This document shows, in pieces, positions 48,327 to 54,309 of a stretch of DNA of 64,000 nucleotides (positions within the stretch are counted from its first letter, which is position 1; the number at the start of each line of letters is the position of its first letter). The notes below the pieces were generated by a model. The model saw only the letters and a program-made list of their open reading frames with translations. It was not told the DNA's origin and searched no databases. A program made the position numbers and the translations under genes. Source of the DNA: a bacterium (GTDB lineage: Bacteria > Verrucomicrobiota > Lentisphaeria > Victivallales > GWF2-38-69); the NCBI GenBank assembly GCA_021781705.1, contig JAJXWI010000004.1, forward strand, positions 1 to 64,000, given 5' to 3'.

Positions 48327-48552
48327 GCATGCTTGGCAAGAATTTTATGTGTTGTACTACATGAATATTAAAAAATCAAAAAAGAAGGGAGTACAGTTTT
48401 TGAAAAATGATTAACTGTTTTAAGTGTTGAACCTTTGAGCTTGTAACTTTTTATAATTTAAGATAGAGTAACAAAAGTTATTTACTTTTGCCGGCTCCGG
48501 CCCTAATTTTGCAATGTTTTTGTTAATAATATTAAGTCTAAGGTATAAAGTT

Positions 48553-48951
48553 ATGAAAAAACTGGATCATATCGGAATCGCGGTTAAATCCATAGAAGAG
48601 GCTTTAAAGCTTTACTCGGGACTTTTGGGATATCAGTCAAAAGGGGAAGAAGTGCTTGAAACCAGGGGCATAAAAGTATGCTTTCTTGATGTTAATGGAA
48701 CAAAGATAGAATTACTTCAGCCAGTAAGAGAAGATTCAGATATTTCAAAGTATCTCGAAAAGAAGGGCGAAGGCCTTCATCATCTCGCGTATAGCGTTGA
48801 TAATGTTCAGGAAATGATAGACAAGGCTAAAGCAATGGGGCTTACGACGCTAAGCGATACGCCTAAACCAGGCGCGCATAATACTCTTATAGCTTTCATA
48901 CATCCGAAATCGGCAAATGGTGTCTTAACAGAACTTGTTCAACATAATTAA
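48553..48951 (+). CDS. mce: Methylmalonyl-CoA epimerase
   Basis: 132 residues, a glyoxalase-fold enzyme. MKKLDHIGIAVKSIEEAL, the metal His in LDHIG, GTKIELLQP and EGLHHLAYSV, and the C-terminal VLTELVQ fit the family. It interconverts the (R) and (S) forms of methylmalonyl-CoA. I start at 48553 because the longer frame to 48514 has no family resemblance. First gene of the operon with the decarboxylase subunits, 14 bases before the next start. Confidence 0.93.
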   Translation: MKKLDHIGIAVKSIEEALKLYSGLLGYQSKGEEVLETRGIKVCFLDVNGTKIELLQPVREDSDISKYLEKKGEGLHHLAYSVDNVQEMIDKAKAMGLTTLSDTPKPGAHNTLIAFIHPKSANGVLTELVQHN

Positions 48952-48965
48952 GGAGATTCTGAAGA

Positions 48966-50534
48966 ATGTCTAACTGTAATAATAACGATGCTCTCGGACA
49001 TATACTTGATGCACTTAAGGCCAGAGATCAAAAACTTGACCTCGCCGGAGGCGAAGCAGCTATAGAAAAACAGCACGCGCAGGGCAAGCTCACAGCAAGG
49101 GAAAGAATCCTGGCTTTGGTAGATGAGGGATCCTTTCAAGAGATAGATAAGTTTGTCAAGCATAGAGGTACATACTTCGGTTTGGATAAAAAAGAAATAC
49201 CTTACGATGCGGTAGTTACTGGATTTGGGACTGTTAATGGGCAGAAAATTGCTGTTTTTTCCCAGGATTTTACAGTTCAGGCAGGTTCTCTCGGCGAAAT
49301 GCACGCCAAGAAAATTATAAAGCTGCAGGATCTTGCGCTAAAATATAGCATTCCGATTATCGGAATAAACGACTCGGGCGGCGCCAGGATACAGGAAGGT
49401 GTAGATGCTTTGTTCGGGTACGGCGGGATTTTTCTTAGAAATACTCATGCTTCGGGTGTGATTCCACAGATTTCAATAATTTCAGGTCCGTGCGCCGGAG
49501 GAGCAGTTTATTCTCCCGCTATTACTGACTTTATAATAATGGTAGATGAGATTTCTCAGATGTTTATAACCGGGCCGGCTGTCGTCAAGGCGGTTACCAA
49601 TGAGGATATAGACAAGGACGGGCTCGGAGGAGCAGTGATTCACAATAGCGTAAGCGGCGTTGCTCATTTCATAGCAAAGAGCGATGAAGACGCTATGAAT
49701 TTGACAAGAAAGATTCTTTCTTATATTCCGTCGAACAATCAGTATAAAGTTGAAGATAGTGAATACGATGTCGACCAAAAACTTGACGAAAAAATTTATA
49801 ATATAGTTCCGGTTGATCCTAAAAAAGCGTTTGATGTAAGAGATATTATAACTGTGGTTTTTGATTCTGGAACTTTTCTTGAAGTGCAGCCATATTTCGC
49901 CCAGAACATAGTTGTAGGTTTTGCTAGAATTGCCGGAAAATCCGTCGGAATAATTGCAAATCAGCCGAATATTTTGGCCGGCGTACTGGATATTAACGCT
50001 TCGGATAAATCCGCAAGATTTATCCGGTTCTGCGATGCGTTCAATATTCCGATTATCACATTTGTTGATACCCCTGGGTTTTTGCCCGGCGTAGGGCAGG
50101 AGCACAGCGGAGTAATCAGGCATGGAGCAAAACTGCTTTATGCTTATTCAGAAGCTTCCGTTCCTATGGTTTCCATTATTCTTAGAAAATCTTACGGCGG
50201 CGCTTACATTGCAATGGCATCACAACACCTTGGTGCTGATTTTGTTTACGCATGGCCTGGCGCTGAAATTGCCGTGATGGGAGCTAATGGTGCCGCGAAC
50301 ATTATTTTTGCGAGGGAAATAGCCGGTTCTTCAAACCCTGAAGAAACGCGTGACGCAAAAATAGAGGAATACAAAAATAAGTTCAGTAATCCTTATATCG
50401 CGGCAGAACGAGGCTATATCGAAGGCGTTATAGACCCTATAGACACAAGAAAAGTGATTATAAAAGCTCTTTCTTTCGCGGAAGATAAAGCTGAAATAAG
50501 ACCCAAGAGAAAACATGGGAATATTCCTCTTTAA
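48966..50534 (+). CDS. mmdA: Acyl-CoA carboxyltransferase alpha subunit (methylmalonyl-CoA decarboxylase / propionyl-CoA carboxylase type)
   Basis: 522 residues. Two carboxyltransferase halves: KQHAQGKLTARERILALVDEGSFQEID, FSQDFTVQAGSLGEMHAKKI, GINDSGGARIQEGVDAL and GPCAGGAVYSPAITDF in the first; FVDTPGFLPGVGQEHSGVIRHGAKLLYA and RKSYGGAYIAM in the second. With the adjacent biotin carrier and the small subunit-like gene, the context is that of the sodium-pumping methylmalonyl-CoA decarboxylase; a propionyl-CoA carboxylase role cannot be excluded. AAGGAG precedes the ATG. Confidence 0.92.
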   Translation: MSNCNNNDALGHILDALKARDQKLDLAGGEAAIEKQHAQGKLTARERILALVDEGSFQEIDKFVKHRGTYFGLDKKEIPYDAVVTGFGTVNGQKIAVFSQDFTVQAGSLGEMHAKKIIKLQDLALKYSIPIIGINDSGGARIQEGVDALFGYGGIFLRNTHASGVIPQISIISGPCAGGAVYSPAITDFIIMVDEISQMFITGPAVVKAVTNEDIDKDGLGGAVIHNSVSGVAHFIAKSDEDAMNLTRKILSYIPSNNQYKVEDSEYDVDQKLDEKIYNIVPVDPKKAFDVRDIITVVFDSGTFLEVQPYFAQNIVVGFARIAGKSVGIIANQPNILAGVLDINASDKSARFIRFCDAFNIPIITFVDTPGFLPGVGQEHSGVIRHGAKLLYAYSEASVPMVSIILRKSYGGAYIAMASQHLGADFVYAWPGAEIAVMGANGAANIIFAREIAGSSNPEETRDAKIEEYKNKFSNPYIAAERGYIEGVIDPIDTRKVIIKALSFAEDKAEIRPKRKHGNIPL

Positions 50535-50558
50535 ACTTAATTAAGGAGTTGTTAAGTT

Positions 50559-50711
50559 ATGAGTAAAGATAACATAAGACTTGACGAGGAAATTGTTGCG
50601 GTAATAACAGCAGCTGTCTCTGTTTATATGGGACACGAGAATTTTACGGTCAGGAGTATTAAGCCTTCTGTGCCGGAGCTAGGGAAATTAAAATTGAATA
50701 CTGGGAATTAA
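50559..50711 (+). CDS. Small decarboxylase subunit-like protein (MmdE/OadG-tail-like)
   Basis: 50 residues, MSKDNIRLDEEIVAVITAAV.... The pattern EIVAVITAAVSVYMGHENFTVRSIKP matches the C-terminal region of OadG/MmdD-type gamma or delta subunits (IAAAIAAY...VRSIRR). It stands between the carboxyltransferase and the biotin carrier, with AAGGAG eleven bases before the ATG. No membrane helix is present, so it resembles the short epsilon subunit rather than a whole gamma subunit. Confidence 0.75.
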   Translation: MSKDNIRLDEEIVAVITAAVSVYMGHENFTVRSIKPSVPELGKLKLNTGN

Positions 50712-50739
50712 ATTTTGTTAATTAGAAAGGCGTTTTTAT

Positions 50740-51117
50740 ATGAAAGTGTTTAAAGTAAAAGTTAATAATACATCTTACGATGTGGAAGTTGAAGAAGTAA
50801 AATCCGGAACTTCGTCCGTTCTGGCGGTTGGCGTGAAGCCGGCGCCAGTTACGGCAAATATTAAAAAAGTTGTATCTTCTAAGGGTAAAGTTGCGGGCGG
50901 CTCTTTTGTAATAAAGGCTCCGCTTCCTGGCTTGATCGTAGAAATTGCTGTTGAAACAGGGAAGGCCATAAAACAAGGCGAAAAAGTACTCGTGCTTGAG
51001 GCTATGAAAATGGAAAATACAATTCTGTCTCCTGTTAGCGGGACTGTTGATAAAATAATTGTAAAAGTTGGAGAATCTGTTAACAGCAGTCAGGAAATGA
51101 TTGTTATCAAAGCTTAA
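50740..51117 (+). CDS. Biotin carboxyl carrier subunit of the decarboxylase
   Basis: 125 residues. N-terminal KVFKVKVNNTSYDVEVEEV, a linker rich in Ala, Val and Pro, and a biotinyl domain with LVLEAMKMENTILSPVSGTV, the Lys in EAMKM being the biotin site. The counterpart of MmdC/GcdC. AAAGG precedes the ATG. The membrane beta subunit that would make a sodium pump is not in the window. Confidence 0.93.
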   Translation: MKVFKVKVNNTSYDVEVEEVKSGTSSVLAVGVKPAPVTANIKKVVSSKGKVAGGSFVIKAPLPGLIVEIAVETGKAIKQGEKVLVLEAMKMENTILSPVSGTVDKIIVKVGESVNSSQEMIVIKA

Positions 51118-52350: not shown

Positions 52351-52530
52351 TTATACTATAGACAATTCATTTTTCAGCAAAAGATAAGAAGAACCATTAA
52401 TCATAACGTCAAAATAATTAGGATTGTACCTGTTTCCATAAATCCCCATTATTATGCCTGTCTGGTTGTGAACTATTTTGTTTTGCTGATTTAGTGGTTT
52501 TACTTTTACGAATCTATTAATTGTAAGCAC
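52351..52530 (-). CDS. Small protein of unknown function downstream of mraZ
   Basis: 59 residues from a GTG at 52530, preceded by the strong site TTAGGAGGAG. It reads as an SH3-like small beta protein (TGIIMGIYGNRYNPNYFDVM then SSYLLLKNELSIV). The gap from the mraZ stop is 25 bases, so it is cotranscribed with mraZ. No family recognised. In most genomes rsmH follows mraZ; here it does not. Confidence 0.6.
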   Translation of the reverse strand: MLTINRFVKVKPLNQQNKIVHNQTGIIMGIYGNRYNPNYFDVMINGSSYLLLKNELSIV

Positions 52531-53039: not shown

Positions 53040-53091
53040 TCCAGTTTATTCCATTACAATCCATTATATTCCAATATTTTCCTAAAAACAA
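53040..53091 (-). promoter_or_regulatory. mraZ promoter with MraZ-type operator boxes
   Basis: On the minus strand: -35 TTGTTT (53086-53091), 17 bases, then a perfect -10 TATAAT (53063-53068). TGGA boxes begin at 53073, 53063, 53053 and 53043, exactly 10 bp apart, with a fifth weaker AGGA at 53083. Known MraZ operators are TGGGN repeats with 5-bp spacers. The boxes cover the -10, the likely start point and the ribosome-binding site. Confidence 0.75.
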
Positions 53092-53317: not shown

Positions 53318-53926
53318 TCAGGGCGAGTTTTCCCCTTCAGATTTTGTATTAGTGCAAATAGAAATGAATTCATTGAAAGATTTTTTATATCTTACAAGAT
53401 CATCCTGATTGAAAGATTTAAAAATTCTATCCCTATATTTATTGATTGCGGGGGCAGCTTTTTGTATAAGCTCAGCAGTGTTTTGGCATATGCTCAGTTC
53501 GCTGTTGGTAAATATTTCGTCAACAGATTTAAGTTGAGAAGAAATTTCGCTGCCTATGAAATTACTAAGTTGTTTTTCTTCCTGAAATATGATCATTTCA
53601 TGAGTAATGAGTGCATGCGCGGCCTGTATAGTATCTTTTAGGAGTAGAAGATATTGAGTGAGCGGGTCTTTCTTTCTTTCATAGTGCGATGGGAAAAAAG
53701 AGAGGGAATGTCTTGCTTCTAATGCAATATTTAATAGTTTTAGCGTGGTCTTATATATATTCTTTCTTTCTTCCTGGTTTTTAGAAAATACATTACTGCT
53801 AAAAACACTTATGGCCTGGTCATATGCCGCATCAATTCGGCCGGTAAGTGCCGGGAGATTCAGATGGGACAGCGTACTGTCTTTTTCTTGAGACGCTGTT
53901 TTTTTATTGCCTAACGAGAAAATCAT
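53318..53926 (-). CDS. Protein of unknown function, helical
   Basis: 202 residues from the ATG at 53926; a TTG at 53992 would add 22 residues with a possible short hydrophobic start (IIKRKISQILAVNFMIFSLG). The protein is almost wholly helical (LLKDTIQAAHALITHEMIIF, LKSVDEIFTNSELSICQNTA) and ends in a charged tail. No family recognised. Neither start has a clear ribosome-binding site. Single gene. Confidence 0.5.
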   Translation of the reverse strand: MIFSLGNKKTASQEKDSTLSHLNLPALTGRIDAAYDQAISVFSSNVFSKNQEERKNIYKTTLKLLNIALEARHSLSFFPSHYERKKDPLTQYLLLLKDTIQAAHALITHEMIIFQEEKQLSNFIGSEISSQLKSVDEIFTNSELSICQNTAELIQKAAPAINKYRDRIFKSFNQDDLVRYKKSFNEFISICTNTKSEGENSP

Positions 53927-54309
53927 AAAATTCACTGCAAGTATTTGTGATATTTTCCTCTTTATTATACCTAAAAACGATTGAATGGTCAATGCTTTTT
54001 TGTATTTTTTTCAATGATGAGGTAAAATACATAAAAGTAGTCTTATTGAGAATTTACAAATGATCTAATACGGGAAGAGATAAAAATTAAGCGAATAAAA
54101 ATCTCTATTTCTGAATAGATTAGGTAAAATATATGCGGAATTCGTGATAGTTGATTACTATAGTTAAATTTTTTCATAAAGTTGTTCGATTATAACCTCA
54201 GGATATTTTTGTTTGGCAATTGAAGTTTTTTGTTTTAGCCTTATTCTAATCGGGTTTAATTTTATACTTTTTGACTGTTATAAATAATTAATATAAAGGA
54301 GACTATCTA
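53927..54309. other. Intergenic stretch before the envelope operon
   Basis: AT-rich, no open frame. It should hold the promoter of the operon that starts at 54310; candidate -10-like boxes are many because of base composition and none stands out. Confidence 0.35.

Follow-up and report, generated by a model that had tools for sequence, protein, structure and literature searches.

The operator of E. coli mraZ, reportedly described by Eraso et al. in 2014, is said to consist of TGGGN boxes with 5-bp spacers. When we checked the sequence upstream of the E. coli gene, TGGG was found three times at 10-bp steps. PMC8475190 calls E. coli MraZ a repressor (citing Eraso 2014), gives the MraZ boxes of Mollicutes as AAAGTG[T/G] direct repeats (citing Fisunov 2016), and places the MraZ motif of M. 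genitalium only at its own promoter. In Burkholderia cenocepacia the MraZ operator is made up of four 7-nt repeats with 3-nt spacers (PMC7761207). Self-operators of MraZ with a 10-bp period are known, and what we describe here is a paralogue with its own box, present class-wide.

The MraZ paralogue and its promoter

The gene, which is intact, lies in the window, the whole 64-kb stretch of DNA that was analysed, and we name it mraZ2 (Table 1). The four exact TGGA boxes that the earlier note had placed at 10-bp steps on the minus strand, the weaker AGGA before them and the embedded promoter, with 17 bp between TTGTTT and TATAAT, were correct to the base, and the boxes cover the -10 element and the ribosome-binding site as it had said. 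The minus strand 5' of mraZ2 reads TTGTTT tt AGGAAAATAT TGGAATATAA TGGATTGTAA TGGAATAAAC TGGAGAAAAAC ATG. Direct repeats with a 10-bp period over the gene's own promoter, as in other MraZ operators, are thus present, and the box is TGGA and not TGGGN. To call this the same geometry with an A in the fourth position was right, because E. coli mraZ has 10-bp-spaced TGGG. The array is not a product of chance. When the 200-bp upstream sequence was shuffled 20,000 times with its dinucleotides kept, four boxes in register never occurred, and three did in 4 shuffles; three TGGA at 10-bp steps with at most one mismatch matched 3 times in the window, all within this array, as compared to 0.21 expected.

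Table 1. Features of the mraZ2 locus in the window.
Feature	Positions	Strand	Basis and remarks
-35 element TTGTTT	53086..53091	-	Sequence; in most relatives a TTG lies equally far from box 1
Box 1, degenerate AGGA	53080..53083	-	Sequence; starts 8 nt past the -35 start; in the register of the relatives' box 1
Box 2, TGGA	53070..53073	-	Sequence and relatives' alignment; within the -35/-10 spacer
-10 element TATAAT	53063..53068	-	Sequence; aligned with relatives' promoters
Box 3, TGGA	53060..53063	-	Sequence and relatives; first base is the last T of TATAAT
Box 4, TGGA	53050..53053	-	Sequence and relatives; close to or just past the likely start point
Box 5, TGGA	53040..53043	-	Sequence; overlaps the ribosome-binding site GGAG (53042-53039)
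mraZ2, MraZ-fold transcription factor, 158 aa	52556..53032	-	Pfam PF02381 and AlphaFold model
59-aa ORF, GTG start, AGGAGGAG shortly upstream	52351..52530	-	Probably co-transcribed with mraZ2

The product belongs to the MraZ family, with 42.1 bits against Pfam PF02381 (cut-off 23), and scores 27.1 bits against TIGR00242, the equivalog model of MraZ from the dcw cluster, as compared to a cut-off of 98.35. A canonical mraZ is also present in this genome, immediately upstream of rsmH (locus L002), and it heads the dcw cluster; mraZ2 does not, and the window gene is a paralogue of MraZ. When solved structures were searched by sequence, MraZ2 had weak matches only, none of them named MraZ, and the canonical copy found MraZ entries. 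An AlphaFold model (pLDDT 81) was built from the window MraZ2 and three relatives, and with this model the best 16 solved matches in Foldseek were all MraZ, with probability 1.00 and a TM score of 0.58-0.65 by query length. The matches include 9r4j, MraZ with its promoter, and 9sz7, MraZ with a four-box promoter, and the earlier assignment of the product as an MraZ homologue is borne out by them.

DXXXR-type loops contact DNA in AbrB/MraZ proteins. An alignment of 78 MraZ2 proteins, 12 canonical copies and E. coli MraZ showed that MraZ2 does not have DXXXR in both half-repeats: the first D and R are kept in 78/78, and the second loop is [ST]XXXR in 78/78. Residue 91, in this second loop, is S or T in every MraZ2 and D in all 12 canonical copies and in E. 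coli. In MraZ2 the first loop reads mostly D-x-N-G-R-x-[KR], as compared to D-x-Q-R-R-x-A in the canonical copies, with N at residue 15 in 71/78 against Q in 12/12, and K or R at residue 19 in 78/78 against A in 12/12; the second is [ST]-x-Q-G-R as compared to D-x-Q-G-R. Single residues may correspond to single bases of the box, and the roughly 78 protein-operator pairs offer a way to decipher how MraZ recognises its boxes.

The array in relatives and in the genome

Among 60 close relatives, 38 have MraZ2, and in a sample of 388 genomes drawn from the phylum it occurs in 80, 62 of which belong to the same order (own family included) and 18 to the same class. Outside the class no relative was found among the 388 genomes at E 1e-15. 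Canonical MraZ is present in 58 of the 60 relatives, with or without MraZ2. A viral origin of MraZ2 was considered and rejected, as no relative was found among viral contigs.

Altogether 78 mraZ2 promoters were compared, the first 40 loci and 40 later ones (38 new, 2 repeats) that were fetched once the motif had already been defined. At period 10 the best run of exact TGGA had a mean of 3.35, as compared to 1.01-1.08 for six other periods (7-9 and 11-13); the later 40 loci alone gave 3.15 as compared to 1.05-1.12 at the other periods. According to the earlier note, the operator would be refuted if close relatives that keep the gene intact no longer had the 10-bp period. The period is kept, at least partly, in 77/78 promoters, with at least three exact TGGA at period 10 in 67. 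The array stands upstream of mraZ2 in all of the first 40 loci, and in all of the later ones except that of G111, with only two boxes left in G362. The G111 locus (L209) holds an MraZ2 homologue with neither array nor operon. In one promoter, L021 of G003, TGGA is replaced by TGGT four times with the 10-bp spacing kept, and no matching change was seen when the loops of its MraZ2 were inspected by eye; TGGT is also abundant in L201 (G250) and L194 (G331).

The register of the promoters is mostly common, with a TTG at -35, box 1 following 7-8 bases on, box 2 in the spacer and box 3 beginning with the final T of the -10 element, and the window promoter agrees with it if AGGA is taken as box 1. 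When 36 promoters of relatives were aligned, the second base A and the last T of TATAAT proved invariant, and the first T is kept in 97%. The T, G and G of the box carry 1.8-1.95 bits, its A 1.3 and the spacer positions 0.4-1.1, and since T, G and G stand so far above the spacers, the boxes are not kept by close kinship alone.

Within the whole 2.58-Mb genome, the four-box pattern with 0-1 mismatch occurs only at the mraZ2 promoter. With 2-3 mismatches it has 19 scattered matches, as compared to 9 for a reversed control pattern, and 10 of the 13 one-mismatch triples elsewhere in the genome fall within ORFs that are 90 aa or longer. A wider MraZ2 regulon in this genome was therefore rejected, the remaining three- and four-box mismatch matches being few, scattered and mostly coding; a regulon reached through fewer or weaker boxes may nevertheless exist. 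Exact four-box runs, found as overlapping exact triples, occur in 19 of the 60 genomes (own included), each time beside mraZ2, and none was found in those of the 60 without mraZ2.

The earlier comparison with known MraZ operators stands as far as E. coli is concerned, but the natural comparator is the canonical copy that these genomes also have, with the box AGGKG. Thirty canonical promoters have WGGDG boxes, mostly AGGTG or AGGGG, with a mean run of 2.83 at period 10 as compared to 0.97-1.2 at other periods. The two boxes do not mix: the TGGA run upstream of canonical mraZ is 0.57, and the WGGDG run upstream of mraZ2 is 0.54, which in both cases means that the array is absent. The canonical array of the own genome is degenerate (AGGGT, AGTAG, AGGAG, AGGAG). 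Because the boxes of mraZ2 differ from those of ordinary mraZ, the two copies seem to have been split into separate self-controlled switches.

Genes next to mraZ2

Across much of the class, three genes stand downstream of mraZ2 and encode a membrane protein of about 90 aa with one span, a PBP_dimer protein and an FTSW_RODA_SPOVE (SEDS) protein. The PBP_dimer protein has about 195-260 aa, and a transpeptidase domain was not found in its sequence; the SEDS protein, of about 370-440 aa, is the third FtsW/RodA protein of the genome. At several loci (L113, L117, L106, L109, L034, L118 and others) the operon lies 0.5-2.7 kb downstream. The nearly complete operon genomes that were checked (G003, G006, G020, G035, G048, also G017) have at least three SEDS proteins, and genomes without the operon, the own one together with G001, G002, G005, G024 and G032, have two. 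In the less complete G014 and G026 two SEDS proteins were seen, one within the operon. Family f4 mostly has mraZ2 and the small protein only.

The description of the gene as an orphan is true of the own genome and of its family neighbour G001, where neither the small membrane protein nor the PBP_dimer and SEDS genes were found beside mraZ2, but not of the class elsewhere, where it heads a cell-wall operon. The orphan state is therefore most likely a loss. A search of the own genome with one query found no PBP_dimer protein of 230 aa. Before the detached SEDS loci of G008, G009 and G012 (L171, L169, L170) there is no TGGA array, and thus control of the SEDS genes is shown only through their membership of the operon. 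In G012 and G009 a PBP_dimer gene accompanies the detached SEDS gene.

The 59-aa ORF is the only one downstream of mraZ2 before genes on the opposite strand. A longer ORF in its frame gave no known family, and a profile of the relatives' small membrane protein did not match the 59-aa ORF. In four loci (L003, L004, L006 and L007, f3 g19) one more gene is inserted directly after mraZ2, and its product, about 75 aa long, has paired cysteines and is zinc-ribbon-like. Upstream of mraZ2 in the window, on the same strand, is a 224-aa ORF (53318-53992, minus) with no Pfam match. The plus strand at 48514-51117 carries a gene of the glyoxalase fold, resembling methylmalonyl-CoA epimerase, and the genes after it look by sequence like those of a biotin-dependent decarboxylase (carboxyltransferase, small subunit and biotin carrier).

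Proposed self-repression by MraZ2 and comparison with known systems

It is highly probable that the array is the autorepression operator of MraZ2, a paralogue with a diverged and insulated specificity. We infer that MraZ2 binds the array DNA as a ring and represses the promoter, and that mraZ was duplicated. As there is one TGGA per helical turn (10 bp), the ring would lie on a single face of the DNA, with each of its subunits reading one box. It would cover the promoter from just past the -35 element as far as the ribosome-binding site, with the -10 and the start point in between, so that RNA polymerase is excluded. Such a placement of the boxes on one face is what would be expected from the MraZ of E. 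coli and Mycoplasma. MraZ2 would have arisen by the duplication, its specificity drifting to WTGGAA; as canonical MraZ would read TAGGKG, the two circuits would stay apart. The repressed unit would, in most of the class, also include the small membrane protein, many genomes would add the protein with the PBP-dimerisation domain and the third SEDS (FtsW/RodA-type) protein, and in the own genome the self-controlled regulator alone would be left. Simple self-repression is the most economical explanation because the only such array of the genome is at mraZ2 itself. Against it speak the low TIGR00242 score, the lost Asp of one DXXXR loop, the detached SEDS loci and G111 without an array, and the two boxes of G362.

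That MraZ2 activates its own operon, or both activates and represses it, is very unlikely. The direction of control cannot be read from the sequence, but a ring bound to these boxes, which extend from the spacer over the -10 and the start point to the ribosome-binding site, would stand in the way of the polymerase, and E. coli MraZ, with its 10-bp array close upstream of the gene, is called a repressor in PMC8475190 (citing Eraso 2014). Still more improbable is that another regulator, or canonical MraZ, binds the array and that MraZ2 acts elsewhere. It is conceivable since binding by MraZ2 is a prediction and nearly all relatives (58/60) have the canonical gene; however, the promoters of that gene have AGGKG and not TGGA, the genomes with canonical MraZ and without mraZ2 lack an exact four-box TGGA run, and the array is at no other site in the own genome. 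The least probable explanation is that the A/T-rich spacers, which are indeed phased at about one helical turn, act as A-tracts separated by GG that bend the DNA and strengthen the promoter with no MraZ bound, since T, G and G and not the A's are most conserved, canonical mraZ in these genomes has a promoter array of 10-bp period with a different G-rich core, and exact four-box runs were found only beside mraZ2 in the genomes searched.

It is somewhat more probable than an even chance that a class-wide duplicate of MraZ with its own insulated operator code runs a parallel, stripped-down division operon, a second switch for cell-wall synthesis beside dcw, and that the family of the window lost the machine and kept the switch. 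The parts of this operon are the small membrane protein, a PBP-dimerisation domain without transpeptidase and a third SEDS synthase, so that a SEDS synthase would be paired with a PBP pedestal domain under an MraZ of its own. Genomes that hold both copies also offer a natural example in which two MraZ paralogues go with two different putative operators. A search of the open-licence literature, which leaves most subscription papers outside, found no description of such a two-operator MraZ pair or of a SEDS/PBP_dimer operon of this kind.

MraZ2 shares with E. coli MraZ the family, the 10-bp direct repeats before its own gene, a G-rich core of four bases and self-control, which for mraZ2 is predicted. 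It differs in the box, TGGA as compared to TGGG, in the loops, DSNGR and SAQGR in the window protein as compared to DSKGR and DGAGR, and in the place of the gene, E. coli mraZ being the first of the dcw cluster, next to rsmH. The Mollicute MraZ, with the complexes 9r4j and 9sz7, is alike in its fold and multi-box promoter (4 boxes in 9sz7), but its box sequence is another and its gene sits in the division cluster. The operator of B. cenocepacia has the same 10-bp period and also overlaps the start point, but it repeats a GTG motif and belongs to the dcw promoter. Finally, the canonical MraZ that these Victivallales-type genomes encode belongs to the same family and has a 10-bp array over its own promoter, but with the box AGGKG, the loops DxQRR and DxQGR, and, in the own genome, a place beside rsmH.
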